A program made the position numbers and the translations under genes. Of a stretch of 64,000 nt of DNA, positions 5,401-46,556 are shown piece by piece. The stretch spans positions 1-64,000 of the forward strand of contig NZ_CP012334.1 of NCBI RefSeq assembly GCF_001704295.1. Reading direction: 5' to 3'. How positions within the stretch are numbered: position 1 is the stretch's first letter; each line of letters begins with the position of its first letter. This DNA comes from Bordetella sp. H567. Lineage in GTDB: Bacteria > Pseudomonadota > Gammaproteobacteria > Burkholderiales > Burkholderiaceae_B. The notes under the pieces are model-generated. The model saw only the letters and a list, made by a program, of their open reading frames with translations, was not told where the DNA came from and did no database searches.

Positions 5401-5578
5401 AGTTCTGGATTAGTTCTGAAAATGGAAAGATGATTTTCGAATATCCGGGTTTATCCCTAGGTCTTGGCGGCGCAGAATGCGTTTCATCGGGAACAGCAAC
5501 GGACATCGCGAACTTCCCAACGTTAACGAAATCGCGATGCACGGCCCGAACCACTCAACCAGGACTAGGAGTACTGCC

Positions 5579-5884
5579 ATGAAAGCCAAGACCATCGTTT
5601 CCGCTCTGATTCTTTCTTTCGCCGCCATCGGCGCCGCGCAAGCCGCCAATAGCGAACCGAACAACGTGCCCTTCCAAGGCGTCTACGGCCAAGCGGCCAA
5701 CAGCGTGAGCCGCACCCAAGTGCTGGCCGAGCTGCAGCAAGCGCGCACCGCCGGCCTGACGGGCAACGCCGATATCGACAACGCGCCCTTTACCGCCCAG
5801 GTGGACAGCGGCGTGAGCCGCGCGCAGATCGCGCTGGGCTCGGATTTCGGTGACTCGAACAACCAGCCGTTCCAAGGTGCGTAA
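5579..5884 (+). CDS. Small exported protein, family copy A1
   Basis: 101 residues. Signal peptide is residues 1-22 (lysines at 2 and 4, hydrophobic core, AQA before the cut), leaving a mature chain of about 79 residues. The mature chain has three NxPF motifs (near 29, 68 and 95) separated by two SxxQ(V/I) segments. The segment SRTQVLAELQQARTAGL resembles the DUF4148 motif of Burkholderiales exported proteins; this is a resemblance only, and function is unknown. The start is fixed by the GGACTAGGAG ribosome site at 5562-5571 and by frame changes upstream between copies. A1 differs from the majority at A50, V75, R81 and L86; it shares A50 and L86 only with A2. 5' inverted repeat 5504-5539. Confidence 0.85.
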   Translation: MKAKTIVSALILSFAAIGAAQAANSEPNNVPFQGVYGQAANSVSRTQVLAELQQARTAGLTGNADIDNAPFTAQVDSGVSRAQIALGSDFGDSNNQPFQGA

Positions 5885-6062
5885 GCACCCACGGCGATTC
5901 CAGCCACGGGTGGCGTGATCGCGCGATCGGACGCAGAGATCGGGTCCGACAGTATCGCGATCCCGCCACCAGGAAGTCCGGCCGTTCATGCCTGTACGGA
6001 TGAACGGTTTCCCCGGCGAGAGGCGGGGATGCTGTAAGTGGCAGTCCTCTCGGTGCAGTACG

Positions 6063-6092
6063 TCGGCCCTCCTTGCGGGGCCGATTTTTTTT
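6063..6092 (+). terminator. Terminator of unit A1
   Basis: TCGGCCC pairs with GGGCCGA around a short loop and is followed by nine T residues. It is the last part of the 111-nt 3' element that starts with the hairpin at 5982-6007. Confidence 0.85.
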
Positions 6093-6305
6093 TGCCGAGG
6101 CGCCATGATGGCGGCCCGGACGATATGGCCGCGGGCTCCGCGACCCGGATCGCCTCGGCCATTGGATCGGGACTAGGAGGCGGTACGCCCCGAGGACACT
6201 CCACCCGCTTAAGCGTCCCGAAACACGGGCTTAAGCAAATACGACTTCGCGAAAGCGCTCCGCGGGTGCATAGTTCAGGGATACCCACGCGACGGAGACC
6301 CAAGC

Positions 6306-7217
6306 ATGCCGGACGCTGCCGCCCCGCTCGAAGACTGGCTGGACAAGACCGAGACGGTCCAGGACCTGATCACCCCCTTCCCCCTGGCCGCGCTGGCGGC
6401 GACGCTGGAACGTTCGGATCCGGGCGGCGTGGTGCCGCCGCTGTGGCATTGGCTGTATTTCCTGCCGGTCACTCCCATGGGCGACGTCGGGCCGGACGGG
6501 CATGCCAGGCGCGGCGGCTTCCTGCCGCCGGTGCCGCTGCCGCGGCGGATGTGGGCGGGCGGCCGCTTGACCTTTCATGCGCCGCTGCGCGAGGGCGAGC
6601 GCGCGGCGCGCACTTCCACGATCGCGCATATCGAGGACAAGACCGGCCGCAGCGGAAGACTGGTTTTCGTGACCGTGCAGCACCGCTACGCCGTCGACGG
6701 CGAAACCCGCATCGAAGAAGAACACGACATCGTCTACCGCGACGCGCCGCCGCCCTCGGCCCACGCGCGGGAAGATGGGCAGGGCGCGGGGCGCCAAGGC
6801 CTGGCTTCGACAGCGGGGCGGCAGGATGCGGCGGCCGCGCAGCGGCAGGCGCCCGCGCCGCAGGGTGAGGAGTGGTCGCGTACCCTGCATCCCGATCCCG
6901 TGCTGCTGTTCCGCTATTCGGCGCTGACCTTCAACAGCCATCGCATTCATTACGATCATCCCTATGTGACGGGTCAAGAGGGCTATCCCGGACTGATCGT
7001 GCATGGGCCGCTGATCGCCACGCTGCTGCTGGATCTGCTGCATCGCGAACGGCCCGACGCCAGGCTGCGCGCCTTCGCGTTTCGCGCGATGCGGCCCTGC
7101 TTCGCCGGCAACGCGCTGACGGTATGCGGCAAGCCGCAAGCCCATGGCGAGATCGCGCTGTGGAGCAAGGACCACGAAGGCAATCTGGGTATGCAAGCCA
7201 CCGCCACGGTCGCATGA
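6306..7217 (+). CDS. FAS1-like/MaoC-type acyl-CoA hydratase
   Basis: Predicted hot-dog-fold hydratase acting on a CoA thioester, 303 residues. The N-terminal half resembles the FAS1-like dehydratase domain. The C-terminal half carries the hydratase region RYSALTFNSHRIHYDHPY and GYPGLIVHGPL (about 203-238), as in mesaconyl-C4-CoA hydratases and HTD2-like proteins. Residues about 155-190 form a Gln/Ala/Arg-rich low-complexity linker. RBS GGAG at 6294-6297. It is first in a run with an acyl-CoA dehydrogenase, a CoA-transferase and an MmgE/PrpD protein, so its substrate is probably a branched or dicarboxylic acyl-CoA; the exact substrate is not deducible. Confidence 0.8.
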   Translation: MPDAAAPLEDWLDKTETVQDLITPFPLAALAATLERSDPGGVVPPLWHWLYFLPVTPMGDVGPDGHARRGGFLPPVPLPRRMWAGGRLTFHAPLREGERAARTSTIAHIEDKTGRSGRLVFVTVQHRYAVDGETRIEEEHDIVYRDAPPPSAHAREDGQGAGRQGLASTAGRQDAAAAQRQAPAPQGEEWSRTLHPDPVLLFRYSALTFNSHRIHYDHPYVTGQEGYPGLIVHGPLIATLLLDLLHRERPDARLRAFAFRAMRPCFAGNALTVCGKPQAHGEIALWSKDHEGNLGMQATATVA

Positions 7218-7347
7218 CGCCATCCCCGTGGTGCGGCGCGACGCGTGATGTCGCGGCGCCTTCGTGCGGTAACTCGACGCGATAGCCGGACACGCCGGCG
7301 CAGGCCCCGATAAACCGCCAGCGATGGCGCGAGATGAGTGCACGGAC

Positions 7348-8505
7348 ATGAACCCACAGGAATCCTTCCAGGACATCCGCGAAGCCGTACGGGATCTTTG
7401 CGGGCAGTTTCCGCCGGAATATTTCCGCGAGATCGACGAGGCGCGCGGCTATCCCGAGGCCTTTGTCGATGCGCTGACGCGCGCGGGCTGGCTGGCCGCG
7501 CTGATCCCGCAGGAGTACGGCGGCTCCGGCCTGGGCTTGACCGAGGCGTCGGTCATCATGGAAGAGATCAACCGCTCCGGCGGCAATGCCGGCGTGTGCC
7601 ACGGCCAGATGTACAACATGGGCACGCTGCTGCGCCATGGGTCGGAAGAACAGAAACGCGCGTACCTGCCCCGGATCGCCAGCGGCGAGCTGCGCCTGCA
7701 ATCGATGGGCGTGACCGAGCCGACCACCGGTACCGACACCACGCGAATCAAGACCACGGCGGAACGCCGCGGCGACCGCTATGTGGTCAACGGGCAGAAG
7801 GTCTGGATATCGCGCATACAGCATTCCGACCTGATGATCCTGCTGGCGCGCACGACGCCGCTGGCGGATGTGCGCCGCAAGTCCGAAGGCATGTCCATCT
7901 TTTTGGTGGACCTGCGCGAGGCGATCGGCAAGGGGCTGACGGTGCGGCCGATCCGCAATATGGTCAATCACGAGACCAATGAGCTGTTCTTCGAGAACCT
8001 CGAGATCCCCGCGGAAAACCGTATCGGCGAGGAAGGCCAGGGCTTCAGGTACATCCTGGACGGCTTGAACGCCGAGCGCACCCTGATCGCGGCGGAATGC
8101 ATCGGCGACGGGTACTGGTTCGTCGACAAGGTCAGCGCCTATGCGAAGGAGCGCGTGGTGTTCGGCCGGCCCATCGGGCAGAACCAGGGCGTGCAGTTTC
8201 CCATCGCGCGGGCCTATATCAATGTGGAAGCGGCCAGCCTGATGCGCTTTGATGCGGCGCGCCGCTTCGATGCGCACGAGCCGTGCGGCGCCCAGGCCAA
8301 TATGGCCAAGCTGCTGGCGGCGGATGCATCCTGGGAAGCCGCCAATGCCTGCCTGCAGTTTCACGGTGGCTTTGGCTTCGCCAGCGAATACGATGTGGAA
8401 CGCAAGTTCCGCGAGACCCGGCTGTACCAGGTGGCGCCGATATCGACCAACCTGATTCTTGCGTATGTGGCGGAACATGTGTTGGGACTGCCCCGGTCTT
8501 TCTAG
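7348..8505 (+). CDS. Acyl-CoA dehydrogenase
   Basis: FAD-dependent alpha,beta-dehydrogenation of an acyl-CoA, passing electrons to ETF; 385 residues. Motifs include the YGGSG segment near 58, the FAD-binding MGVTEPTTGTDT segment near 124, VNGQKVWIS near 148 and QFHGGFGFASEYDVER near 337. A glutamate sits in the helix-G position (LNAERTLIAAE near 245), as in isovaleryl-CoA dehydrogenase. The C-terminal site that carries the base in short-chain enzymes reads QVAPIST and has no glutamate. An upstream ATG at 7324 is in frame, but 7348 fits family length. The next gene begins 9 bp after the stop. Confidence 0.88.
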   Translation: MNPQESFQDIREAVRDLCGQFPPEYFREIDEARGYPEAFVDALTRAGWLAALIPQEYGGSGLGLTEASVIMEEINRSGGNAGVCHGQMYNMGTLLRHGSEEQKRAYLPRIASGELRLQSMGVTEPTTGTDTTRIKTTAERRGDRYVVNGQKVWISRIQHSDLMILLARTTPLADVRRKSEGMSIFLVDLREAIGKGLTVRPIRNMVNHETNELFFENLEIPAENRIGEEGQGFRYILDGLNAERTLIAAECIGDGYWFVDKVSAYAKERVVFGRPIGQNQGVQFPIARAYINVEAASLMRFDAARRFDAHEPCGAQANMAKLLAADASWEAANACLQFHGGFGFASEYDVERKFRETRLYQVAPISTNLILAYVAEHVLGLPRSF

Positions 8506-8514
8506 GACGCGAAC

Positions 8515-9693
8515 ATGAGACCCTTGGATGGCATTACCGTCATCGCGCTGGAACATGCCATAGCGGCGCCCTTCTGTACGCGCCAGCTGGCCGACCAGGG
8601 CGCGCGCGTCATCAAGATCGAACGGCCCGGCGTGGGTGACTTCGCACGCCGCTACGACGAACGCGTGCATGGCCAGGCGTCGCATTTCGTGTGGACGAAT
8701 CGGTCCAAGGAAAGCCTGACACTGGACCTGAAGCAGCCCCAGGCGCAACGCATCCTGGACGCGCTGGTGGCCGACGCCGATGTGCTCGTGCAGAACCTGG
8801 CGCCGGGCGCGGCCGACCGCATGGGGCTGGGCTACGACGTCTTGTCCGAGACGCATCCGCGCTTGATCGTCTGCGATATCTCCGGCTACGGCGCGGATGG
8901 TCCCTACCGCGACCGCAAGGCCTACGATCTGCTCATACAGAGCGAGTCGGGCTTTCTGTCGGTGACCGGCACACCCGATGAACCCGCCAAGGCCGGCTGC
9001 TCGATCGCGGACATCGCCGCGGGGATGTATGCCTACAGCAATATCCTGAACGCGCTGTTGCTGCGCGGACGCACCGGGCGCGGGTGCCGCATCGATGTGT
9101 CCATGCTGGAAAGCATGGTCGAGTGGATGGGCTACCCGCTGTACTACGCGATGGAAGGCCAGCCCGCGCCGCCGCGCGCGGGCGCCTCGCACGCCACCAT
9201 CTACCCCTATGGTCCGTTTCCCACGGGCGACGGCAAGACGGTCATGCTGGGGTTGCAGAACGAGCGCGAATGGAAGCTGTTCTGCGATAACGTGCTGCGC
9301 CGCCCCGCGCTGGCCGACGACCCGCGCTTCGCCACGAATTCGGCGCGCTCGGCCGCGCGCGACGACCTGCGCGCCGTGATCGTCGCGGCCTTCGCCGAAC
9401 TGACGGCCGCGCAGGTGGTGGAACGGCTGGATGCAGCGGGGATCGCGAATGCGCGCATGAACACCCTGCACGAAGTCTGGGCGCATCCCCAACTGCGCGC
9501 GCGCGATCGCTGGCGGCAGGTGGATGCGCCCGGCGGCACCATCGCGGCGCTGTTGCCGCCCGGCATGCCGCAGGGGGTGTCGGCGCGCATGGATGCGGTG
9601 CCCGTGCTCGGCCAGCATACGGATGCCATATTGGCCGAGCTGCGCCATGATGCCGCCGCGATAGCGGCGCTGCGCGCAGCCGGCGTGGTGTGA
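8515..9693 (+). CDS. CaiB/BaiF (type III) CoA-transferase
   Basis: Predicted to transfer CoA between carboxylic acids through an aspartyl-CoA anhydride; 392 residues. The N-terminal LDGITVIALEHAIAAPFCTRQLADQGARVIKIE is the family opening in pattern, and the nucleophilic Asp is expected in RKAYDLLIQ near residue 141. The segment GRGCRIDVSMLESM near 190 is also typical. AGGA overlaps the preceding stop and acts as the RBS, so the gene is coupled to the dehydrogenase. It would activate the acid used by the hydratase and dehydrogenase of this operon. Confidence 0.9.
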   Translation: MRPLDGITVIALEHAIAAPFCTRQLADQGARVIKIERPGVGDFARRYDERVHGQASHFVWTNRSKESLTLDLKQPQAQRILDALVADADVLVQNLAPGAADRMGLGYDVLSETHPRLIVCDISGYGADGPYRDRKAYDLLIQSESGFLSVTGTPDEPAKAGCSIADIAAGMYAYSNILNALLLRGRTGRGCRIDVSMLESMVEWMGYPLYYAMEGQPAPPRAGASHATIYPYGPFPTGDGKTVMLGLQNEREWKLFCDNVLRRPALADDPRFATNSARSAARDDLRAVIVAAFAELTAAQVVERLDAAGIANARMNTLHEVWAHPQLRARDRWRQVDAPGGTIAALLPPGMPQGVSARMDAVPVLGQHTDAILAELRHDAAAIAALRAAGVV

Positions 9694-9835
9694 CAGGCAA
9701 CACGCAGCGCGTGGGGTGGATGGTGGGCGCGGGTCCGGGTTAGACCGCCGGTGCGAGGCCGCGCAGCCGTGCAGGGCCAAGTGATACGTCGGCGCGGCAG
9801 TACATGGCCACGCTGCTTCTTCCAGGAGAGAGATC

Positions 9836-11281: not shown

Positions 11282-11407
11282 GTCGTCGTGCGACACCCCG
11301 GCCCTGCGGTCGGCCGCCGTCCGCGACGGCGCACCGCATCCCGGCATCGATGAGGCCTGGTCCGCTCGGTTACCATGGGACAGTTCCTGTATCCCCAACG
11401 CGCGGAC

Positions 11408-12319: not shown

Positions 12320-12640
12320 GCACATTCAGCTCGGGGTGGGGAGATGATGCCGGCTTCCAGGTATTCCAGTAGCCGCTTGCCGGTGCCGATATAGAGATCT
12401 GTCGCGTGCTGCTGCATGCAGTTCAGCGGTGCGAGTCTTGCCGGCAACGCATCGCCGGCTTCGGTTCTGGATTTGCTCAGAAATTGGAAAGATGATTTGC
12501 GGCTATGCCGGTTTATCCCTAGGTCTTGGCGGCGCAGAATGCGTTTCATCGGGAACAGCAACGGACATCGCGAACTTCCCAACGTTAACGAAATCGCGAT
12601 GCACGGCCCGGACCACTCAACCAGGACTAGGAGTACTGCC

Positions 12641-12946
12641 ATGAAAGCCAAGACCATCGTTTCCGCTCTGATTCTTTCGTTCGCCGCCATCGGCGCCGCG
12701 CAAGCCGCCAACAGCGAACCGAACACCGTGCCCTTCCAAGGCGTGTACGGCCAAGCGGTTGACAGCGTGAGCCGTGTGCAAGTGCTGGCCGAGCTGCAGC
12801 AAGCGCACGTCGCCGGCCTGACCGGCAACGCCGATATCGACAACACGCCCTTTACCGCGCAAGCCGATAGCGGCGTGAGCCACGCGCAGATCGCGCTGGG
12901 CTCGGATTTCGGTGACTCGAACAACCAGCCGTTCCAAGGTGCGTAA
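12641..12946 (+). CDS. Small exported protein, family copy A2
   Basis: 101 residues with the family signal peptide (1-22). It differs from the consensus at V46, A50, H56, V57 and L86; A50 and L86 are shared only with the solitary copy A1, so A1 and A2 form a subgroup. RBS GGACTAGGAG immediately upstream. Its 5' inverted repeat has a 20-nt loop. Function unknown. Confidence 0.85.
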   Translation: MKAKTIVSALILSFAAIGAAQAANSEPNTVPFQGVYGQAVDSVSRVQVLAELQQAHVAGLTGNADIDNTPFTAQADSGVSHAQIALGSDFGDSNNQPFQGA

Positions 12947-13140
12947 GCACCCACGGCGATTCCAGCCACGAGTGGCGTGATCAAGCGATCTAGTGATCGG
13001 ATGATCGGCAAAGAGATTGAGTCCGGCCGCTTCGCTGACCACGCCACCAGGAAGTCCGGCCGTTCATGCCTGTACGGATGAACGGTTTCCCCGGCGAGAG
13101 GCGGGGATGCTGTAAGTGGCAGTCCTCTCAGCGCAGTACC

Positions 13141-13170
13141 TCGGCCCTCCTTGCGAGGGCCGATTTCTTT
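13141..13170 (+). terminator. Terminator of unit A2
   Basis: Nine-base-pair stem TCGGCCCTC/GAGGGCCGA with a 5-nt loop, followed by TTTCTTT. It closes the 3' element 13060-13170. Confidence 0.85.
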
Positions 13171-13380
13171 ACGGCCGCCGAAACGGGTTTTCTCCTGGAA
13201 TAGGCAATGGATTGACTAAAAAAACGGAAAGATGATTTGCGGCTACGCGGGTTTATCCCTCGGTCTTGGCGGCGCAGAATGCGTTTCATCGGGAACAGCA
13301 ACGGACATCGCGAACTTCCCAACGTTAACGAAATCGCGATGCACGGCCCGAACCACTCAACCAGGACTAGGAGTACTGCC

Positions 13381-13686
13381 ATGAAAGCCAAGACCATCGT
13401 TTCCGCGCTGATTCTTTCCTTTGCCGCCATCGGCGCCGCGCAAGCCGCCAACAGCGAACCGAACACCGTACCCTTCCAAGGCGTCTACGGCCAGGCCGCC
13501 GACAGCGCCAGCCGCACCCAAGTGCTGGGCGAGCTGCAACAAGCGCGCACCGCCGGCCTGACGGGCAACGCCGATATCGACAACACGCCCTTTACCGCGC
13601 AAGCCGACAGCGGCGTGAGCCATGCTCAGATCGCCCGGGGCTCGGATTTTGGCGATTCGAACAACCAGCCGTTCCAAGGTGCGTAA
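13381..13686 (+). CDS. Small exported protein, family copy A3
   Basis: 101 residues with the family signal peptide. Distinguishing residues are D41 and A43. It carries G50 and R86, like all copies except A1 and A2. Same RBS and 39-bp distance from the inverted repeat (13306-13341) to the ATG as every other copy. Function unknown. Confidence 0.85.
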   Translation: MKAKTIVSALILSFAAIGAAQAANSEPNTVPFQGVYGQAADSASRTQVLGELQQARTAGLTGNADIDNTPFTAQADSGVSHAQIARGSDFGDSNNQPFQGA

Positions 13687-13864
13687 GCACCCACGGCGAT
13701 TCCAGCCACGGGTGGCGTGATCGCGCGATCGGACGCAGAGATCGGGTCCGACAGTATCGCGATCCCGCCACCAGGAAGTCCGGCCGTTCATGCCTGTAAG
13801 GATGAACGGTTTCCCCGGCGAGAGGCGGGGATGCTGTAAGTGGCAGTCCTCTCGGCGCAGTACC

Positions 13865-13894
13865 TCGGCCCTCCTTGCGAGGGCCGATTTCTTT
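13865..13894 (+). terminator. Terminator of unit A3
   Basis: Same nine-base-pair GC stem and T tract as the other units. It ends the 3' element 13784-13894. Confidence 0.85.
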
Positions 13895-13981
13895 TGCGCG
13901 AATGGAAAAGCGGTTTCTTTCTCCCGTGATGCCGATGAATCTTCCAGCGCCATCACACCGTGTTCACCTTCAATCTAGAAG

Positions 13982-14090: not shown

Positions 14091-14249
14091 AAACGGAAAG
14101 ATGATTTGCGGCTATGCCGGTTTATCCCTAGGTCTTGGCGGCGCAGAATGCGTTTCATCGGGAACAGCAACGGACATCGCGAACTTCCCAACGTTAACGA
14201 AATCGCGATGCACGGCCCGGACCACTCAACCAGGACTAGGAGTACTGCC

Positions 14250-14555
14250 ATGAAAGCCAAGACCATCGTTTCCGCTCTGATTCTTTCTTTCGCCGCCATT
14301 GGCGCCGCGCAAGCCGCCAACAGCGAACCGAACAATGTGCCTTTTCAAGGCGTCTACGGCCAAGCGGTCGACAGCGTGAGCCGCACCCAAGTGCTAGGCG
14401 AGCTGCGGCAAGCGCACACCGCCGGCCTGACGGGCAACGCCGATGTCGACAACGCGCCCTTTACCGCCCAAGCCGATAGCGGCGTGAGCCATGCTCAGAT
14501 CGCCCGGGGCTCGGATTTTGGCGATTCGAACAACCAGCCGTTCCAAGGTGCGTAA
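14250..14555 (+). CDS. Small exported protein, family copy A4
   Basis: 101 residues. Distinguishing residues are V40, D41, R53, H56 and V66. Its 3' element carries the compensatory change in the first helix (CCGTTCAC with GTGAACGG at 14660-14685). The unit is preceded by unique flank sequence rather than by an ordinary inter-unit spacer. Function unknown. Confidence 0.85.
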   Translation: MKAKTIVSALILSFAAIGAAQAANSEPNNVPFQGVYGQAVDSVSRTQVLGELRQAHTAGLTGNADVDNAPFTAQADSGVSHAQIARGSDFGDSNNQPFQGA

Positions 14556-14740
14556 GCACCCACGGCGATTCCAGCCACGGGGGGCGTGATCAGGTGATCG
14601 GATGATCGGAAAAGATATCGGATCCGACGGCATCACGATCCCGCCACCAGGAAGTCCGGCCGTTCACGCCTGTACGGGTGAACGGTTTCCCCGGCGAGAG
14701 GCGGGGATGCTGTAAGTGGCAGTCCTCTCAGCGCAGTACC

Positions 14741-14770
14741 TCGGCCCTCCTTGCGAGGGCCGATTTCTTT
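14741..14770 (+). terminator. Terminator of unit A4
   Basis: Nine-base-pair TCGGCCCTC/GAGGGCCGA stem and TTTCTTT tract, ending the 3' element 14660-14770. Confidence 0.85.
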
Positions 14771-14977
14771 GCCACGGCCGGAACGGGTTCTCGCTTGAAA
14801 TAGGTAGGGGATTCACTAAAAAAACGGAAAGATGATTTGCGGCTACGCGGGTTTATCCCCCGGTCTCGGCGGCGCAGAATGTGTTTCATCGGGAACAGCA
14901 ACGGACATCGCGAACTTCCCAACCGACTAATCGCGATGTACGGCCCGAACCACTCAACCAGGACTAGGAGTACTGCC

Positions 14978-15283
14978 ATGAAAGCCAAGACCATCGTTTC
15001 CGCTCTGATTCTTTCCTTCGCCGCCATCGGCGCCGCGCAAGCCGCCAACAGCGAACCGAACACCGTGCCCTTCCAAGGCGTGTACGGCCAGGCCGTCGAC
15101 AGCGTCAGCCGCACCCAAGTGCTGGGCGAGCTGCAGCAAGCGCGCACCGTCGGCCTGACGGGCAACGCCGATATCGACAATGCGCCCTTTACCGCGCAAG
15201 CCGATAGCGGCGTGAGCCATGCTCAGATCGCCCGGGGCTCGGATTTCGGCGATTCGAACAACCAGCCGTTCCAAGGTGCGTAA
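14978..15283 (+). CDS. Small exported protein, family copy A5
   Basis: 101 residues. V40, D41, V58 and A69 distinguish it. Its leader shares the GTGTTTC variant with B2 and its 5' loop is 17 nt. From base 15183 onward the gene lies inside the 626-bp inverted repeat shared with B2/B1. Function unknown. Confidence 0.85.
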   Translation: MKAKTIVSALILSFAAIGAAQAANSEPNTVPFQGVYGQAVDSVSRTQVLGELQQARTVGLTGNADIDNAPFTAQADSGVSHAQIARGSDFGDSNNQPFQGA

Positions 15284-15808
15284 GCACCCACGGCGATTCC
15301 AGCCACGGGTGGCGTGATCGCGCGATCGAGTGATCGGACGCAGAGATCGGGTCCGACAGTATCGCGATCCCGCCACCAGGAAGTCCGGCCGTTCATGCCT
15401 GTACGGATGAACGGTTTCCCCGGCGAGAGGCGGGGATGCTGTAAGTGGCAGTCCTCTCGGTGCAGTACCTCGGCCCTCCTTGCGAGGGCCGATTTCTTTA
15501 CGGCCGCCGAAACGGGTTTTCTCCTGGAATAGGCAGTGGATTGACTAAAAAAACGGAAAGATGATTTTCGGCTACGCCGGTTTATCCCCCCGTCTCGGCG
15601 GCGCAGAATGCGTTTCATCGGGAACAGCAACGGACATCGCGAAACTTCCCAACCAACCAATCGCGATGTACGGCCCGAATCACTCAACCAGGACTAGGAG
15701 TACTGCCATGAAAGCCAAGACCATTGTTTCCGCTCTGATTCTTTCCTTTGCCGCCATCGGCGCTGCGCAAGCCGCCAATAGCGAACCGAACAACGTGCCC
15801 TTCCAAGG
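15183..15808 (+). repeat. 626-bp inverted repeat, left arm
   Basis: By direct reading this stretch (3' third of A5, its 3' region, the A5-A6 spacer, the A6 leader and the first 100 bases of A6) equals the reverse complement of 42671-43296, with two mismatches and no gap. It faces its partner across 26.9 kb. Confidence 0.9.
15470..15499 (+). terminator. Terminator of unit A5
   Basis: Nine-base-pair stem and TTTCTTT tract, ending the 3' element 15389-15499. Confidence 0.85.
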
Positions 15809-16013
15809 CGTCTACGGCCAAGCGGCCAACAGCGTGAGCCGCACCCAAGTGCTGGGCGAACTGCAGCAAGCGCGCACCGTCGGCTTGACTGGCAACGCCG
15901 ATATCGACAACACGCCCTTTACCGCCCAAGCCGACAGCGGCGTGAGCCATGCTCAGATCGCCCGGGGCTCGGATTTCGGTGACTCGAACAACCAGCCGTT
16001 CCAAGGTGCGTAA
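15708..16013 (+). CDS. Small exported protein, family copy A6
   Basis: 101 residues, identical in protein sequence to copy B4 in the opposite array. The leader and first third of the gene instead match B1 exactly. V58 and T69 are characteristic. The 3' element (16118-16228) has the G-U intermediate of the first helix. Last unit of array A. Function unknown. Confidence 0.85.
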   Translation: MKAKTIVSALILSFAAIGAAQAANSEPNNVPFQGVYGQAANSVSRTQVLGELQQARTVGLTGNADIDNTPFTAQADSGVSHAQIARGSDFGDSNNQPFQGA

Positions 16014-16199
16014 GCACCCACGGCGATTCCAGCCACGGGTGGCGTGATCGCGCGATCGGATGATCGGCAAAGATATCGGATCCGACCGCATCGCGATCCC
16101 ACCACCAGGAAGTCCGGCCGTTCATGCCTGCACGGGTGAACGGTTTCCCCGGCGAGAGGCGGGGATGCTGTAAGTGGCAGTCCTCTCTGTGCAGTACCC

Positions 16200-16228
16200 C
16201 GGCCCTCCTTGCGAGGGCCGATTTTTTT
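16200..16228 (+). terminator. Terminator of unit A6
   Basis: CGGCCCTC/GAGGGCCG stem followed by seven T residues, marking the inner edge of array A. Confidence 0.85.
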
Positions 16229-16441
16229 ACAAGGACGCGCATGCCGCGGCGGCCCCGCTTTCACGCGGCGCGCTGGTCCGGGTAACGACCGAAAAGAACC
16301 GTTATTGCGGCCCCGACTTCCCCAAGTAGCACTTATCTTCCAGCACCCGCAGGTCGCGAGCGATCCGGCACGCCCCCAATGCACGATCGTGCGACTCAAC
16401 CAGAATGAGTTGGTGTCCGGCTCTATTGCGCGGCGCCGCGG

Positions 16442-17347
16442 CTATTGCTTCCACTCCGCGTCCTTGAACCAGCGCCGCAGGTGTTCCACGAAGAGCCGCA
16501 CCTTGTACGGCAGGTGTCGCTTGCTTTGCACGATGGCGTAGATGTCCAGCCCTTCCGGGCGATATTCCGGCATCACGACCTGCAAGGCGCCCGCGCGCAG
16601 GGCGCTCTCCACCATGTAGCGTGGGTGCATGGAAATCCCGTGTCCCAGCGTGGCCAGATGCATGATGGATTCGCCCAGGTTGGAGCTGAATGTGCCCGAC
16701 ACATGCACCACCTGCGTGTTGTTGCGCGGATCGGTGAAGGTCCACATATTCGTCGGCGCCTTCAGGCTGTGGACCAGGCAATTGTGCTGTTCCAGGTCCT
16801 TGGGCGTGGCCGGCGTACCGTGCGCCTGCAGGTAGCCGCGCGTGGCGACGATCACCTGTGGCACGACGGTGATCAGGTAGGCGATCTGGTTGGTGTCCTT
16901 CAGGCGAGGCGCGATGCGCACCGACAAGTCCAGGTTCTCCGCGATCAGGTCGCTGCGGCCATCGTCCAGCAAGAGCGATAGCTTGATCGCCGGATAGCGG
17001 CGCAGGAAGTCCTCGATGGCGGGGGCCAGGTGCACGGCCCCGAAAGAAGGGGGCGTGCCCAGGCGGATGCGGCCGGTGGGCGTGCGTACCGGCCCTTGCA
17101 CCAGTTCCTTCAGGTTGCGGGTGGCGAGCGACAGCGTATCGGCGTTTTCCAGTAGAAGCCGGCCGCTTTCCGTCAGGCTGACGTGCTTGGTATTGCGATT
17201 GAAGAGCTGGACGCCGAAATAGCCTTCCAGCCAGGCTATCTTTTTGGTCACGGACGAACGGCTGGATGACCTGCTTTCGGCGGCCTTCGAAAAGCTGAGG
17301 CTCTTGCCCACTTCCTGAAAGACTTCCATGCATTCGATCAGGTCCAT
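16442..17347 (-). CDS. LysR family transcriptional regulator
   Basis: 301 residues. HTH region MEVFQEVGKSLSFSKAAESR and RSSVTKKIAWLEGYFGVQLFNR (about 7-51), then a substrate-binding-like effector domain. It is divergent from the Fe-alcohol dehydrogenase/TfdA-like operon with a 129-bp gap that holds a TTTCC-N5-GGAAA dyad, so it probably controls that operon. It ends 214 bp beyond unit A6; that gap contains nothing recognisable. Confidence 0.9.
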   Translation of the reverse strand: MDLIECMEVFQEVGKSLSFSKAAESRSSSRSSVTKKIAWLEGYFGVQLFNRNTKHVSLTESGRLLLENADTLSLATRNLKELVQGPVRTPTGRIRLGTPPSFGAVHLAPAIEDFLRRYPAIKLSLLLDDGRSDLIAENLDLSVRIAPRLKDTNQIAYLITVVPQVIVATRGYLQAHGTPATPKDLEQHNCLVHSLKAPTNMWTFTDPRNNTQVVHVSGTFSSNLGESIMHLATLGHGISMHPRYMVESALRAGALQVVMPEYRPEGLDIYAIVQSKRHLPYKVRLFVEHLRRWFKDAEWKQ

Positions 17348-35151: not shown

Positions 35152-35193
35152 CCACCTTCAACCGCACCGTAGCCAAAACAAGGGGAATACCTT

Positions 35194-36372: not shown

Positions 36373-36380
36373 GCCTTATC

Positions 36381-36409: not shown

Positions 36410-36430
36410 TTCCGCCATCAAGGGGATTGC

Positions 36431-37300: not shown

Positions 37301-37307
37301 GGCCGCC

Positions 37308-38309: not shown

Positions 38310-39065
<756 letters not shown>

Positions 39066-39088
<23 letters not shown>

Positions 39089-39776: not shown

Positions 39777-39869
39777 CCGTGGACACTGGCTTTTCTACCC
39801 TGACGTTGCGACCCTCGCATTCCGGCTATCCGGGTTACTGACGTCGATTTCCATCATCGGATTGATCCC

Positions 39870-40769: not shown

Positions 40770-40796
40770 CCGCCGACTGATGCAGCGGGAGGGATG

Positions 40797-40830
40797 CCGT
40801 GCCTGCGGTGCGTGGGCACGGTTTTTTTTT
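40797..40830 (+). terminator. Intrinsic terminator of the amidase/ABC operon
   Basis: CCGTGCC (40797-40803) pairs with GGCACGG (40815-40821) and is followed by nine T residues, 27 bp after the deacetylase stop. Confidence 0.85.
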
Positions 40831-40831
40831 G

Positions 40832-40958
40832 CCGCCGGGCCGCCCCAAGGCAAAAAGCCCCCTTGGGGGGCAGCAAGCCGATTTATCGGCGCGGCGTGGG
40901 GGTTCTTCTTTCCGCCGGGCCGCCCCAAGGCAAAAAGCCCCCTTGCGGGGCAGCAAGC
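40832..40958. repeat. Two 47-bp direct repeats (REP-like palindromes)
   Basis: Copies at 40832-40878 and 40912-40958 differ at one base. Each contains GCCCCAAGG...CTTGGGG-type dyad arms around CAAAAAG, so each can fold. They lie between convergent genes and look like an intergenic REP element, possibly a bidirectional terminator. Confidence 0.7.
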
Positions 40959-40976
40959 AGGCGTGCCCGCGCGGAG

Positions 40977-41969
40977 CTAGGAGCCTTCGCGCGATGCCGT
41001 GGAGGGGTTCGGCGTACACGCCGCCGCGCCGCCCAGGGTATTGCGCACCCACACCAGCTCGGCGGCGATCGCCACCGCAATCTCCGCCGGCGTGCGGCTG
41101 GCGATGCGCAATCCCACCGGGCCGTGCAGGCGGCCGATCTCCTCATCGGATAGATCGAACATCCGCAGGCGTTCGCGCCGCTTGGCCTGGTTGGGCGCGG
41201 AGCCCAGCGCCCCGACGTAGAACGCCGGGGACTTCAGCGCTTCCAGCAGCGCCATGTCGTCCAGCTTGGGATCGTGGGTGACCGCGACAATGGCCGTCCG
41301 CTCGTCGGTGCCGATGTCCGTTACCGTATCGTCCGGCATGGACGTCAGCAAGGTGACGTTCGGCATGTTCCAGTCGGCAAAGAATTCTTCGCGCGGATCG
41401 CACACCATCACATGGAAATCCAGTGCCGTGGCGATTTCGCTGAGCACCCGCGCGGTCTGGTTGGCTCCGATGATCAGCAGCCGCCAGTGCGGGCCGTAGA
41501 CGGAACGGAAGGTGCGCCCGTCGAAGTCGGGGCCATCGATGGGGCTCGCCGGAGCCAGCGTCCAGGTTCCGGTCTGCAGATCGACAGTCCGCATGATGAG
41601 GCGATGCGCACGCACGTCCTGCAACACCGGATCCAGCCACAAGGTGTCGTGCAGCGGCTCTACCACCAGCCGCAGCGTACCGCCGCAGGGCAGGCCAAAG
41701 CGTGCCGCTTCCTCGCTGGTGATCCCGTAGGTGACCCGGTCGGCCATGTCCGGCAACGTACCGGCCACGGCGCGCGCGATCAGGTCGTCTTCCACGCACC
41801 CGCCGGACACGGATCCCACCAGCCTGCCGTCGCCGCGTAATGCCGCCAGCGCTCCCGCCTGCCGGGGCGCCGAACCCCAGGTTTGCACGACGGTGATCAA
41901 GTGCACGCGATGGCCCTCGGCGACCCAGTCGCGCGCGTGCTGCAGTACATCGATATCCAGAGAATTCAT
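40977..41969 (-). CDS. XdhC/CoxI family protein
   Basis: 330 residues. N-terminal XdhC domain (VQTWGSAPRQAGALAAL near 29, GSVSGGCVEDD near 55) and a C-terminal Rossmann XdhC domain (LLIIGANQTARVL near 164; FYVGALGS near 250). Such proteins sulfurate and insert molybdenum cofactor into xanthine-dehydrogenase-type enzymes. No molybdenum hydroxylase subunits are nearby, so the client must be elsewhere. ATG 41969 is preferred to 42008. Confidence 0.85.
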   Translation of the reverse strand: MNSLDIDVLQHARDWVAEGHRVHLITVVQTWGSAPRQAGALAALRGDGRLVGSVSGGCVEDDLIARAVAGTLPDMADRVTYGITSEEAARFGLPCGGTLRLVVEPLHDTLWLDPVLQDVRAHRLIMRTVDLQTGTWTLAPASPIDGPDFDGRTFRSVYGPHWRLLIIGANQTARVLSEIATALDFHVMVCDPREEFFADWNMPNVTLLTSMPDDTVTDIGTDERTAIVAVTHDPKLDDMALLEALKSPAFYVGALGSAPNQAKRRERLRMFDLSDEEIGRLHGPVGLRIASRTPAEIAVAIAAELVWVRNTLGGAAACTPNPSTASREGS

Positions 41970-42256
41970 CAGCCGCCCTTCCTGTAAGGCCCCGGCACGG
42001 GCCTTCAAACCGTCCGCACCGTGTACCGGCCGGAGCAGGACATATGGTGGACGCCGCCCGCCGGAAGGCGAGACGTGCGCTACAAACGGCGGGCACGGGA
42101 GCGATGCGGCTTGTCATGCCCACCGCCTCCTGTCCGGCGCCATGGGCGCAGTGTGCAATAGTTTTTGGACTTTTCCAACTTCCCGTTTGGCAGGCGAAGC
42201 TGTTTGACTGGCGTCCGGCCGACGACGGACGCAGCGGCCGGGATCCGGTCCCGGCG
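41970..42256. other. Non-coding gap between xdhC-like gene and array B
   Basis: 287 bp in which I see no gene. It presumably contains the promoter of the XdhC gene. It shows no similarity to the sequence beyond the inner edge of array A. Confidence 0.4.
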
Positions 42257-42286
42257 AAAAAAATCGGCCCTCGCAAGGAGGGCCGA
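42257..42286 (-). terminator. Terminator of unit B1
   Basis: Nine-base-pair stem TCGGCCCTC/GAGGGCCGA and seven U in the minus-strand transcript; inner edge of array B. Confidence 0.85.
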
Positions 42287-42465
42287 GGTACTGCACCGAG
42301 AGGACTGCCACTTACAGCATCCCCGCCTCTCGCCGGGGAAACCGTTCATCCGTACAGGCATGAACGGCCGGACTTCCTGGTGGCGGGATCGCGGTCGGAT
42401 CCGATATCTTTGCGATCATCCGATCGCGCAATCACGCCACCCGTGGCTGGAATCGCCGTGGGTGC

Positions 42466-42771
42466 TTACGCACCTTGGAACGGCTGGTTGTTCGAATCGC
42501 CAAAATCCGAGCCCCGGGCGATCTGAGCATGGCTCACGCCGCTGTCGGCTTGCGCGGTAAAGGGCGTGTTGTCGATATCGGCATTGCCCGTCAGGCCGGC
42601 GCTGCGCGCCTGCAGCAGTTGGTCCAGCACGTAGGTGCGGTTCACGTTGCTGGCCGCTTGGCCGTACACACCTTGGAAGGGCACGTTGTTCGGTTCGCTA
42701 TTGGCGGCTTGCGCAGCGCCGATGGCGGCAAAGGAAAGAATCAGAGCGGAAACAATGGTCTTGGCTTTCAT
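42466..42771 (-). CDS. Small exported protein, family copy B1 (divergent centre)
   Basis: 101 residues. The signal peptide and N-terminus are identical at DNA level to A6 for the first 100 bases. Then eight residues differ within 41-57 (S41, N42, N44, Y47, D50, Q51, L53, S57), after which the consensus resumes. This mosaic suggests recombination with a paralogue not present in the window. Same RBS and leader as the others. Function unknown. Confidence 0.85.
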   Translation of the reverse strand: MKAKTIVSALILSFAAIGAAQAANSEPNNVPFQGVYGQAASNVNRTYVLDQLLQARSAGLTGNADIDNTPFTAQADSGVSHAQIARGSDFGDSNNQPFQGA

Positions 42772-43296
42772 GGCAGTACTCCTAGTCCTGGTTGAGTGAT
42801 TCGGGCCGTACATCGCGATTGGTTGGTTGGGAAGTTTCGCGATGTCCGTTGCTGTTCCCGATGAAACGCATTCTGCGCCGCCGAGACGGGGGGATAAACC
42901 GGCGTAGCCGAAAATCATCTTTCCGTTTTTTTAGTCAATCCACTGCCTATTCCAGGAGAAAACCCGTTTCGGCGGCCGTAAAGAAATCGGCCCTCGCAAG
43001 GAGGGCCGACGTACTGCACCGAGAGGACTGCCACTTACAGCATCCCCGCCTCTCGCCGGGGAAACCGTTCATCCGTACAGGCATGAACGGCCGGACTTCC
43101 TGGTGGCGGGATCGCGATACTGTCGGACCCGATCTCTGCGTCCGATCACTCGATTGCGCGATCACGCCACCCGTGGCTGGAATCGCCGTGGGTGCTTACG
43201 CACCTTGGAACGGCTGGTTGTTCGAATCGCCGAAATCCGAGCCCCGGGCGATCTGAGCATGGCTCACGCCGCTATCGGCTTGCGCGGTAAAGGGCG
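42671..43296 (-). repeat. 626-bp inverted repeat, right arm
   Basis: Reverse complement of 15183-15808 with two mismatches (one in the variable spacer of B2, one beside the terminator stem). Covers the start of B1, its leader, the B2-B1 spacer and the 3' third of B2. Confidence 0.9.
42980..43009 (-). terminator. Terminator of unit B2
   Basis: Same nine-base-pair stem with a TTTCTTT tract on the minus strand. Confidence 0.85.
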
Positions 43297-43501
43297 TGTT
43301 GTCGATATCGGCGTTGCCCGTCAGGCCGGCGGTGCGCGCTTGGTGCAGCTCGCCCAGCACTTGGGTGCGGCTGACGCTATCGACGGCCTGGCCGTAGACG
43401 CCTTGGAAGGGCACGGTGTTCGGTTCGCTGTTGGCGGCTTGCGCGGCGCCAATCGCGGCGAAAGAAAGAATCAGAGCGGAAACGATGGTCTTGGCTTTCA
43501 T
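43196..43501 (-). CDS. Small exported protein, family copy B2
   Basis: 101 residues. V40, D41 and H53 distinguish it. It has the shortest 5' loop (15 nt) of the family, with the stem intact. The leader shares a GTGTTTC variant with A5, its positional counterpart. Function unknown. Confidence 0.85.
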   Translation of the reverse strand: MKAKTIVSALILSFAAIGAAQAANSEPNTVPFQGVYGQAVDSVSRTQVLGELHQARTAGLTGNADIDNTPFTAQADSGVSHAQIARGSDFGDSNNQPFQGA

Positions 43502-43706
43502 GGCAGTACTCCTAGTCCTGGTTGAGTGATTCGGGCCGTGCATCGCGATCTGGTTGGGAAGTTTCGCGATGTCCGTTGCTGTTCCCGATGAAACACATTC
43601 TGCGCCGCCGAGACCGGGGGATAAACCCGCGTAGCCGCAAATCATCTTTCCGTTTTTTTAGTGAATCCCCTACCTATTTCAAGCGAGAACCCGTTCCGGC
43701 CGTGGC

Positions 43707-43736
43707 AAAGAAATCGGCCCTCGCAAGGAGGGCCGA
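43707..43736 (-). terminator. Terminator of unit B3
   Basis: Same nine-base-pair stem with a TTTCTTT tract on the minus strand. Confidence 0.85.
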
Positions 43737-43914
43737 GGTACTGCGCTGAGAGGACTGCCACTTACAGCATCCCCGCCTCTCGCCGGGGAAACCGTTCATC
43801 CTTACAGGCATGAACGGCCGGACTTCCTGGTGGCGGGATCGCGATACTGTCGGACCCGATCTCTGCGTCCCATCGCGCGATCACGCCACCCGTGGCTGGA
43901 ATCGCCGTGGGTGC

Positions 43915-44220
43915 TTACGCACCTTGGAACGGCTGGTTGTTCGAATCGCCGAAATCCGAGCCCCGGGCGATCTGCGCGTGGCTGATGCCGCTGTCGGCTT
44001 GCGCGGTATAGGGCGCGTTGTCGATGTCGGCGTTGCCCGTCAGGCCGGCGGTGCGCGCTTGCTGCAGCTCGCCCAGCACTTGGGTGCGGCTGACGCTGTC
44101 GACGGCCTGGCCGTACACGCCTTGGAAGGGCACGGTGTTCGGTTCGCTGTTGGCGGCTTGCGCGGCGCCGATGGCGGCGAAGGAAAGAATCAGAGCGGAA
44201 ACGATGGTCTTGGCTTTCAT
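43915..44220 (-). CDS. Small exported protein, family copy B3
   Basis: 101 residues. V40, D41, A69, Y71 (PYT rather than PFT) and I79 distinguish it. Y71 is the only change of the middle PF motif in the family and keeps an aromatic residue. Function unknown. Confidence 0.85.
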   Translation of the reverse strand: MKAKTIVSALILSFAAIGAAQAANSEPNTVPFQGVYGQAVDSVSRTQVLGELQQARTAGLTGNADIDNAPYTAQADSGISHAQIARGSDFGDSNNQPFQGA

Positions 44221-44427
44221 GGCAGTACTCCTAGTCCTGGTTGAGTGGTTCGGGCCGTACATCGCGATTGGTCGGTTGGGAAGTTCGCGATGTCCGTTGC
44301 TGTTCCCGATGAGATGCATTCTGCGCCGCCAAGGCCGGGGGATAAACCCGCGTAGCCGCAAATCATCTTTCCGTTTTTTTAGTCAATCCATTGCCTATTC
44401 CAGGAGAAAACCCGTTTCGGCGGCCGT

Positions 44428-44457
44428 AAAGAAATCGGCCCTCGCAAGGAGGGCCGA
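44428..44457 (-). terminator. Terminator of unit B4
   Basis: Same nine-base-pair stem with a TTTCTTT tract on the minus strand. Confidence 0.85.
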
Positions 44458-44642
44458 GGTACTGCGCTGAGAGGACTGCCACTTACAGCATCCCCGCCTC
44501 TCGCCGGGGAAACCGTTCATCCGTGCAGGCATGAACGGCCGGACTTCCTAATGGCGGGATCGCGATGCTGTCGGACCCGATATCTTTGCCGGTCATCCGA
44601 TCGGGCGATCACGCCACCCGTGGCTGAAATTGCCGTGGGTGC

Positions 44643-44948
44643 TTACGCACCTTGGAACGGTTGGTTGTTCGAGTCGCCGAAATCCGAGCCCCGGGCGATC
44701 TGAGCATGGCTCACGCCGCTGTCGGCCTGGGCGGTAAAGGGCGTGTTGTCGATATCGGCGTTGCCCGTCAGGCCGACGGTGCGCGCTTGCTGCAGTTCGC
44801 CCAGCACTTGGGTGCGGCTCACGCTGTTGGCCGCTTGGCCGTAGACGCCTTGGAAGGGCACGTTGTTCGGTTCGCTGTTGGCGGCTTGCGCGGCGCCGAT
44901 GGCGGCAAAGGAAAGAATCAGAGCGGAAACGATGGTCTTGGCTTTCAT
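44643..44948 (-). CDS. Small exported protein, family copy B4
   Basis: 101 residues, identical to A6 in protein although the leader differs (GATTGGTCGGTTGG-type loop). The protein identity across arrays fits recent gene conversion. Function unknown. Confidence 0.85.
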   Translation of the reverse strand: MKAKTIVSALILSFAAIGAAQAANSEPNNVPFQGVYGQAANSVSRTQVLGELQQARTVGLTGNADIDNTPFTAQADSGVSHAQIARGSDFGDSNNQPFQGA

Positions 44949-45144
44949 GGCAGTACTCCTAGTCCTGGTTGAGTGGTTCGGGCCGTGCATCGCGATTGGT
45001 CGGTTGGGAAGTTTCGCGATGTCCGTTGCTGTTCCCGATGAGATGAATTCTGCGCCGCCAGGACCGAGGGATAAACCGCCGTAGCCGCAAATCATCTTTC
45101 CGTTTTTTTGGTCAATCGACTGCCTATCCCAATTCGACCGTGGC

Positions 45145-45174
45145 AAAAAAACCGGCCCCCGCAAGGAGGGCCGA
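45145..45174 (-). terminator. Terminator of unit B5
   Basis: Slightly altered stem (CGGCCC/GGGCCG core) followed by seven U on the minus strand. Confidence 0.8.
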
Positions 45175-45368
45175 GGTACTGCGCCGAGAGGACTGCCACT
45201 TACAGCATCCCCGCCTCTCGCCGGGGAAACCGTTCATCCGTACAGGCATGAACGGCAGGACTTCCTGGTGGCGTGGTCCGCGATGCGGTCGAACTCAATC
45301 TCTTTGCCGATCATCCGATCAGTCGATCGCTTGATCGCGCCACCCGTGGCTGGAATCGCCGTCGGTGC

Positions 45369-45674
45369 TTACGCACCTTGGAACGGCTGGTTGTTCGAAT
45401 CGCCGAAATCCGAGCCGCGGGCGATCTGCGCGTGGCGCACGCCGCTGTCGGCTTGGGCGGTAAAGGGCGTGTTGTCGATATCGGCGTTGCCCGTCAGGCC
45501 GGCGGTGCGCGCTTGTTGCAGCTCGCCCAGCACTTGGGTGCGGCTCACGCTGTTGCTGGCTTGACCGTAGACGCCTTGGAAGGGCACGTTGTTCGGTTCG
45601 CTGTTGGCGGCTTGCGCGGCGCCGATGGCGGCAAAGGAAAGAATCAGCGCGGAAACGATGGTCTTGGCTTTCAT
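45369..45674 (-). CDS. Small exported protein, family copy B5
   Basis: 101 residues. S40 and R80 distinguish it; close to B6, with which it also shares the spacer type. Function unknown. Confidence 0.85.
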   Translation of the reverse strand: MKAKTIVSALILSFAAIGAAQAANSEPNNVPFQGVYGQASNSVSRTQVLGELQQARTAGLTGNADIDNTPFTAQADSGVRHAQIARGSDFGDSNNQPFQGA

Positions 45675-45872
45675 GGCAGTACTCCTAGTCCTGGTTGAGT
45701 GATTCGGGCCGTGCATCGCGATTTCGTTAACGTTGGGAAGTTCGCGATGTCCGTTGCTGTTCCCGATGAAACGCATTCTGCGCCGCCGAGACCGGGCGAT
45801 AAACCGCCGTAGCCGCAAATCATCTTTCCGTTTTTTTGGTCAATCGACTGCCTATCCCAAATCGACGGTGGC

Positions 45873-45902
45873 AAAAAAATCGGCCCCCGCAAGGAGGGCC
45901 GA
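45873..45902 (-). terminator. Terminator of unit B6
   Basis: TCGGCCC/GGGCCGA stem with seven U on the minus strand. Confidence 0.82.
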
Positions 45903-46087
45903 TGTACTGCGCCGAGAGGACTGCCACTTACAGCATCCCCGCCTCTCGCCGGGGAAACCGTTCATCCGTACAGGCATGAACGGCAGGACTTCCTGGTGGC
46001 GGGATCGCGATACTGTCGGACCCGATACCTTTCTCGATCACCCGATCGCTTGATAACGCCACCCGTGGTTGTAATCGCCGCAGGTGC

Positions 46088-46393
46088 TTAGGCACCTTGG
46101 AACGGCTGGTTGTTCGAATCGCCGAAATCCGAGCCCCGGGCGATCTGAGCATGGTTCACGCCGCTATCGGCTTGGGCGGTAAAGGGCGTGTTGTCGATAT
46201 CGGCGTTGCCCGTCAGGCCGGCGGTGCGCGCTTGTTGCAGCTCGCCCAGCACTTGGGTGCGGCTCACGCTGTTGCTGGCTTGACCGTAGACGCCTTGGAA
46301 GGGCACGTTGTTCGGTTCGCTGTTGGCGGCTTGCGCGGCGCCGATGGCGGCAAAGGAAAGAATCAGAGCGGAAACAATGGTCTTGGCTTTCAT
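46088..46393 (-). CDS. Small exported protein, family copy B6
   Basis: 101 residues. S40 and N80 distinguish it. Its final alanine codon is GCC where the other copies have GCG. It is the first unit of array B in transcription order and is preceded by the outer-flank sequence also found before A4. Function unknown. Confidence 0.85.
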   Translation of the reverse strand: MKAKTIVSALILSFAAIGAAQAANSEPNNVPFQGVYGQASNSVSRTQVLGELQQARTAGLTGNADIDNTPFTAQADSGVNHAQIARGSDFGDSNNQPFQGA

Positions 46394-46556
46394 GGCAGTA
46401 CTCCTAGTCCTGGTTGAGTGGTTCGGGCCGTGCATCGCGATTTCGTTAACGTTGGGAAGTTCGCGATGTCCGTTGCTGTTCCCGATGAAACGCATTCTGC
46501 GCCGCCAAGACCTAGGGATAAACCGCCGTAGCCGCAAATCATCTTTCCGTTTTTTT

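Follow-up and report, generated by a model that had tools for sequence, protein, structure and literature searches.

Proteins of the DUF4148 family are multicopy in the Burkholderiales, and the accessible parts of the published reports describe those of Burkholderia pseudomallei as 90 to 113 amino acids long (PMC7549894). One of them, BPSS1996, is surface exposed, is recognized by antisera, and is encoded immediately downstream of IrlR2-IrlS2 (PMC7549894); loss of one family member lowers virulence, knockdown of another slows growth (PMC7549894, PMC8770471), and an Achromobacter DUF4148 operon is induced by As(III)/Sb(III) (PMC11719878). Here, we describe 16 near-identical DUF4148 cassettes in Bordetella sp. 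H567 (GCF_001704295.1), a relative of Bordetella and Achromobacter. Twelve of them lie in the stretch that we analyzed at its full length and call the window, positions 1 to 64,000 of contig NZ_CP012334.1.

As far as the available text on B. pseudomallei goes, the genes resemble BPSS1996 and its family there in that the proteins are small, the signal peptide lies inside the domain, the genome holds several such genes, and one member stands beside a two-component system (PMC7549894). Unlike those genes, the 16 copies described here are near-identical and stand in arrays, each with a cassette of promoter, leader, and predicted 3′ pseudoknot, and the arrays lie near dnaA, whereas all eight DUF4148 genes of B. 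pseudomallei K96243 are reported on chromosome 2 (PMC7549894). The protein family is known; the near-identical 16-copy arrays and their cassette do not appear in the literature that we could reach, and the cassette may include a new RNA class.

The window opens with dnaA, dnaN, and gyrB. A1 is a solitary copy after gyrB, A2 to A6 follow on the plus strand at 12.6 to 16.0 kb, and B6 to B1 form a minus-strand array at 46.4 to 42.5 kb. The preliminary description of the window had counted 12 copies, and all 12 are present, with coding sequences (CDSs) at the sites listed below. It had also claimed identical protein ends, and all 12 indeed share their first 28 and last 15 residues; the proteins, each of 101 amino acids (aa), come in 11 distinct versions, with variable residues confined to positions 29 to 86, mostly 40 to 58 and 79 to 86. 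Repeat pairs between units run over 402 to 1,137 nucleotides (nt) at 90 to 97% identity, which rules against chance likeness. That every copy has its own leader, ribosome-binding site (RBS), and terminator was borne out, and a promoter block of its own precedes each of the 12 as well, which marks each unit as a complete monocistronic cassette. Terminator-like hairpins with T-runs follow all five copies of A2 to A6 and all six of array B, that of A1 having been recognized by eye. Since the terminator scan of array A gave a total of 5 against 5.5 in shuffles, i.e., no excess, the weight rests on the position and sameness of these hairpins. The features of the window are as follows.

5424 to 5578, plus strand: A1 promoter block and structured leader with RBS, including the leader fold
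5579 to 5884, plus strand: A1 CDS, DUF4148, 101 aa
5972 to 6092, plus strand: A1 predicted 3′ pseudoknot element (5972 to 6061) and terminator (by eye)
12486 to 12640, plus strand: A2 promoter block and leader
12641 to 12946, plus strand: A2 CDS
13050 to 13172, plus strand: A2 predicted 3′ pseudoknot element and terminator
13226 to 13380, plus strand: A3 promoter block and leader
13381 to 13686, plus strand: A3 CDS
13774 to 13896, plus strand: A3 predicted 3′ pseudoknot element and terminator
14095 to 14249, plus strand: A4 promoter block and leader
14250 to 14555, plus strand: A4 CDS
14650 to 14772, plus strand: A4 predicted 3′ pseudoknot element and terminator
14826 to 14977, plus strand: A5 promoter block and leader
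14978 to 15283, plus strand: A5 CDS
15379 to 15501, plus strand: A5 predicted 3′ pseudoknot element and terminator
15555 to 15707, plus strand: A6 promoter block and leader
15708 to 16013, plus strand: A6 CDS
16108 to 16229, plus strand: A6 predicted 3′ pseudoknot element and terminator
42256 to 42377, minus strand: B1 predicted 3′ pseudoknot element and terminator
42466 to 42771, minus strand: B1 CDS, on the longest tree branch among the 12
42772 to 42924, minus strand: B1 promoter block and leader
42978 to 43100, minus strand: B2 predicted 3′ pseudoknot element and terminator
43196 to 43501, minus strand: B2 CDS
43502 to 43651, minus strand: B2 promoter block and leader
43706 to 43827, minus strand: B3 predicted 3′ pseudoknot element and terminator
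43915 to 44220, minus strand: B3 CDS
44221 to 44372, minus strand: B3 promoter block and leader
44427 to 44548, minus strand: B4 predicted 3′ pseudoknot element and terminator
44643 to 44948, minus strand: B4 CDS
44949 to 45101, minus strand: B4 promoter block and leader
45143 to 45265, minus strand: B5 predicted 3′ pseudoknot element and terminator
45369 to 45674, minus strand: B5 CDS
45675 to 45829, minus strand: B5 promoter block and leader
45871 to 45993, minus strand: B6 predicted 3′ pseudoknot element and terminator
46088 to 46393, minus strand: B6 CDS
46394 to 46548, minus strand: B6 promoter block and leader

The genome consists of one contig of 5,532,470 bp, and four further near-identical copies (the C array) at 237,156 to 239,786 bring the total to 16, all within 240 kb of dnaA. 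Diverged DUF4148 loci lie near 231.7, 870, 1,209.6, 1,210, 3,414, 4,736, and 4,831 kb. The preliminary description had spoken of a family of unknown function and proposed a hidden Markov model search; with a typed consensus-like protein as the query, that search matched residues 1 to 63 to DUF4148 (PF13663) at 35 bits (cut-off, 27; E value, 1.9e-8), a family already described as multicopy, with a member located at the surface in Burkholderia according to the accessible text (PMC7549894). When the genome was searched, every copy but B1 passed the PF13663 cut-off (15 of 16), B1 falling just below it at 24.9 bits. NCBIfam offered PraB and nothing else, far under its cut-off. The signal peptide, MKAKTIVSALILSFAAIGAAQA, was recognized by eye, without a signal-peptide predictor, within the Pfam-matched N-terminal domain.

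Among 151 sampled genomes of the taxonomic family, DUF4148 is present in 92. The count peaks at 24 in this genome, but because others reach 23, 22, 21, and 20 (counts of domains, not genes), multiplicity alone is ordinary; what is unusual is the near-identity and the array form of the 16 copies, together with the promoter and RNA cassette, which the preliminary description had not recognized. Its picture of a multicopy, monocistronic gene with a signal peptide near the chromosome start stands by sequence. In the relatives, an alignment-query contig scan yielded 38 loci, an earlier contig scan having given no confirmed relative; coordinate matching identified three genus-group genomes as Bordetella sp. 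LUAb4 (G004), Achromobacter sp. HZ34 (G003), and Achromobacter aloeverae AVA-1 (G001). The start of one A. aloeverae contig (C7, L214) and the end of another (C9, L212) stop just inside the signal-peptide codons of DUF4148-like genes, so draft assemblies may undercount copies.

With a strict version of the promoter pattern, this genome yielded 18 sites, each of them at a DUF4148 gene. A looser pattern, GGAA-N17..23-GGTTTAT-N16..20-SASAAT, gave 53 matches in the six genus genomes, compared with 0 for a reversed-pattern control. By coordinates, 49 of the 53 precede DUF4148 genes; at a further two, A. aloeverae contigs break off and leave only the first 11 codons of such a gene visible (MKTIATSLIVS), for a total of 51, including 19 of 19 in this genome. 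The two exceptions are a promoter block before an unrelated small open reading frame (ORF) in Bordetella sp. LUAb4 (G004:C13:589152, L213) and a match in Achromobacter sp. HZ34 (G003:C18:257789) that resembles the others in the fixed letters only and has no DUF4148 reading frame behind it. Across this genome and its relatives, 55 promoters were gathered with a pattern that allowed 15 to 19 between the hexamers, and the spacing is 17 in every one; the same block precedes DUF4148 genes of Bordetella hinzii, B. petrii, B. ansorpii, and others. Judged by these matches, the promoter block is near-exclusive to DUF4148 genes.

Beginning at the start region, a conserved CAUCGGGAA(A)CA-type anchor marks the leaders (50 of 55), and behind it comes a stem that is spelled differently from group to group. 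The best perfect stem reached at least 6 bp in 31 of the 50, compared with a mean of 9.3 and a maximum of 17 in 200 shuffles of the stem region that kept base composition only; as the leaders are related, this count is not a probability. Fourteen different stems occur among the 36 leaders with at least 5 bp.

Behind the stop codon of 18 DUF4148 genes in this genome lies an element of about 90 nt, consisting of a hairpin, a 5-bp stem with an 8-nt loop, and a GCAGUAC-like tail, followed in the window by the terminator. The 8-nt loop can pair over 7 bp with a strand 12 to 17 nt downstream, giving a 5-bp stem, a 1-nt loop, a 7-bp second stem, no nucleotides between the stems, and a third loop of 12 to 17 nt, which we take to be the layout of an H-type pseudoknot. 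The model behind the comparative analysis came from alignment A3, with 24 sequences drawn from 34 distinct elements after 10 near-identical variants from this genome were omitted; as the selection for A3 required pairing at one pseudoknot position, a first covariation count was circular at that pair. The count was therefore repeated on all 41 elements found by model R1 (43 rows, two of them duplicates; 34 distinct), which contains no pseudoknot pairs, yet was built from A3. Across the 34 distinct elements, 97.8% of 408 pair cells are standard, against 50 to 58% when the partner strand is slid by 1 to 3 columns, and 14 pair cells are changed on both sides (shuffled mean, 2.3; 0 of 500 shuffles as high). 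Pair 50:81 is standard in all 34 rows, as A-U, G-C, or C-G, and both predicted helices hold pairs changed on both sides. Against the pseudoknot, its outer pair 48:83 is unpaired in 7 of 34 rows, five of the seven second-helix pairs are invariant, and the number of pairs with two-sided change, three, was equaled in 115 of 500 shuffles; pair 42:59 is unpaired in 2 of 34 rows. Overall, we predict that the mRNA of each copy ends in an H-type pseudoknot, a prediction supported by compensatory changes.

The general comparison class for such an element comprises H-type pseudoknots and stability elements in the 3′ untranslated regions (3′UTRs) of mRNAs. Compared with that class, the present element is bacterial, is tied to one exported-protein family, and occurs in 18 copies in this one genome. 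No Rfam family matches the window at its gathering threshold. Anti-hemB (RF02837, Burkholderia RNA 7) shows a weak full-length alignment over the G+C-rich hairpin, second stem, and terminator, but at 13.6 bits (E value, 1.5) against a gathering threshold of 49.5 it was rejected as an identity for the element; the genome's one listed anti-hemB match lies elsewhere, at 519,795, and also stays below gathering (30.1 bits). The S17 small RNA of Bordetella pertussis is likewise a betaproteobacterial RNA ending in a terminator; it differs in being intergenic, between BP3151 and coq7, and in having a fully conserved region, and the accessible text of its description states no link to DUF4148 (PMC11722255). 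The element is undescribed in the literature on DUF4148 and on Bordetella and Achromobacter small RNAs that we could reach, with subscription papers and supplements beyond it. Autoregulation by pairing of the element with the RBS was not supported, since over 26 genes matched combinations (−20.5) were no better than mismatched ones (−20.1); pairing was strong in a few relatives (L116 and one L123 copy, z < −4) and weak in L052 and L129. In relatives, GCAGUA(C)/GUAGUACC-type repeats are often numerous in the 3′UTR (L029, L038, L044, L115, L116, L133, and L142), and some of them lie between small hairpins.

All six genus genomes contain the element, with 41 matches in total, and 40 of these lie directly behind a DUF4148 gene. 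The exception, in Achromobacter sp. HZ34 (G003:C15:102463, L205), has a shortened leader and keeps the promoter, the terminator, and an intact element; no ORF, DUF4148 or other, lies in the 71 nt that separate the promoter's GGTTTATC from the element.

In a tree of 40 rows, which holds part of the copies of the genus, the 16 copies form one clade (support, 100/99), with own_870k as sister (99/89) and G005_3838k next. Their mean pairwise identity is 92.0% over the 160 nt before the CDS, 93.3% over the CDS, and 92.1% over the 215 nt after it, and the least variable parts are the leader anchor, the RBS, both CDS ends, and the 3′ element. Nonsynonymous (dN) and synonymous (dS) divergence average 0.034 and 0.21, a dN/dS of means of 0.16 over 118 of 120 pairs, the two pairs without synonymous change being omitted. 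All four combinations occur at 1,363 of 3,240 pairs of informative sites, and incompatible neighbors number 12, against 33.6 at random (0 of 2,000 as low), which argues that exchange took place in tracts. Individual pairs are mosaic: before, within, and after the CDS, A1 and C1 are 100, 99.7, and 92.2% identical and B6 and C2 are 88, 100, and 100% identical, while B5 and C3 agree at 100% over the CDS and both flanks. In the close relative G005, the homologue of window position 16,451 comes about 1.1 kb after the end of gyrB, and A1 to A6 and their intervening genes are absent there; its first 70 kb show no array at the corresponding places, with single copies at 16 and 40 kb. These comparisons place the origin of the 16 near-identical cassettes in this lineage, with recombination between arrays and purifying selection on the protein. 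By eye, long segments reappear inverted at the G005 place corresponding to A1 to A6 (G005:C1:5212-6312, L175).

The report of a window free of transposases and integrases withstood a Pfam scan, in which neither appeared among 45 window proteins. From 47 likely non-DUF4148 ORFs chosen by G+C content at third codon positions, 44 were scanned and 3 were not, and window:37745-39085 was added; the sole transposase-related name was a cross-match of DnaA to IstB. A mobile element, transposon, or integron cassette array was rejected on this count, with no matches to plasmid or phage proteins either. Elsewhere in the window, at 40820 to 40974, a 75-nt G+C-rich stretch occurs as two direct copies of 84% identity.

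The mature A6 protein is rich in Ala, Gln, Gly, Asn, and Ser and has 7 acidic and 3 basic residues, a composition that would suit a bulk rather than a catalytic role. Cys, Met, Lys, and Trp are missing from the mature protein, which has a single His, and for lack of Cys, Met, and Lys in A6, metal or redox scavenging through side chains was rejected. An AlphaFold2 model has a mean predicted local distance difference test score (pLDDT) of 61.4 and a predicted template modeling score of 0.25; 16 residues reach pLDDT values of 70 to 90, and the highest blocks are residues 41 to 60, around a helix at 45 to 57. This low confidence may reflect disorder. For the decoy and adhesive roles that had been left open earlier, no result speaks for either, no test having been aimed at them.

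The paralog at 231.7 kb (231,739) directly follows a response regulator and a histidine kinase, with a molybdopterin oxidoreductase beyond (L045:4272-8691), and has the same promoter block as the copies. In its response regulator and histidine kinase, this locus resembles IrlR2-IrlS2-BPSS1996 as described in the accessible text (PMC7549894). Neither the 12 window copies nor the 237-kb array stands directly after such a pair. Given the shared promoter and the B. pseudomallei precedent, by analogy a two-component regulator of this kind most likely drives the copies.

Taken together, we favor, with slightly more belief than doubt, an explanation in which the 16 cassettes make a dose-amplified, coregulated, mRNA-stabilized bulk envelope protein. 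In this scenario, one dedicated transcription factor, perhaps the two-component regulator beside the paralog, would activate the DUF4148 promoters in concert; leader structure and 3′ pseudoknot would shield the mRNA from nucleases; and gene dosage, origin proximity, and mRNA stability would combine to yield a very large amount of protein. The product would be small and slightly acidic, probably with little ordered structure, and would work in bulk in the periplasm or at the cell surface, by cushioning the envelope or binding ligands under stress, and not as an enzyme. Export and a surface location are suggested by the family member BPSS1996, as far as the accessible account describes it (PMC7549894), and stress or metal induction is suggested by what the available text says of an Achromobacter DUF4148 operon (PMC11719878).

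Several observations weigh against this explanation. A consensus sigma-70 scan found no promoters in either array, so the promoter claim rests on conservation; no result ties the two-component system to a palindrome; and export is predicted from the signal peptide. The low AlphaFold confidence may mean a poor model instead of disorder, and no classical metal-binding or redox-scavenging site is evident in the mature protein. The promoter block stands without the element in own_870k and G005_3838k, the two loci closest to the 16, which weakens the link between element and copy family: either the 16 kept what both lost, or they regained their 3′ part from another paralog. Outside the genus, the element was found in none of 145 family genomes, many with DUF4148 genes, by a search whose filters were strict enough to lose weak matches, and the pseudoknot would thus be dispensable for DUF4148 function in general.

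Other explanations give the RNA the leading part. It is possible, though we doubt it, that the hairpin, H-type pseudoknot, and terminator constitute a genus-specific structured RNA class that itself acts as a 3′UTR-derived regulatory or protective RNA, having reached 18 genomic copies by riding the protein cassette and occurring protein-free in one relative. A dual-function cassette, in which the roughly 120-nt 3′UTR, cut free or simply persisting, would act as a regulatory RNA and the 16 copies would raise the dose of RNA as much as that of protein, strikes us as rather doubtful. It would fit the low variability of the 3′ element, its conserved structure in all six genus genomes, the intrinsic terminators after the array elements, and the ORF-less locus of Achromobacter sp. 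HZ34; that locus could, however, be a recent deletion relic, and the other 40 elements sit behind an ORF. Nor is an exposed conserved seed evident, for the 7-nt CU-rich strand is paired in the predicted pseudoknot and covaries with its partner at one position, and the pairing predicted with the gene's own RBS is no better than with others.

The mosaic of exchanges bears on two further readings. Neutral amplification, with unequal crossing-over and gene conversion multiplying the unit without a dose benefit, would account for the copying from array to array and for the arrayless start of G005, but we think it unlikely, since dN/dS among the copies is low, none of the 16 ORFs is broken, and all 16 keep promoter block and element. 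The same frequent exchange, with variable residues between two fixed protein ends and a surface-exposed, antiserum-recognized relative in the accessible account of BPSS1996 (PMC7549894), could point to a reservoir of donor copies from which a surface protein would draw antigenic or receptor-escape variants. No copy, however, resembles a silent cassette, each being equipped with a promoter block and a start; selection is purifying overall, and the protein differences are few. We regard such a reservoir as very improbable. As to an assembly artifact inflating the copy number, repeats of 0.7 kb are hard to assemble, the two A. aloeverae contigs break inside such genes, and B5 and C3 are identical throughout; the 12 window units, however, differ in sequence and sit between different flanks on both strands of a single 5.53-Mb contig, and we give this reading hardly any credence.

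The dose-amplified envelope protein that we favor belongs to a family found mainly in the Burkholderiales and without known biochemical activity. The promoter block common to all 16 copies makes its regulon testable by a single motif. A covariation-supported pseudoknot that a single mRNA family carries at its 3′ end would provide a clean system for distinguishing mRNA stabilization from the release of regulatory RNA in bacteria, and 16 copies homogenized over about 230 kb, with no transposase seen, make a good bacterial case of concerted evolution.

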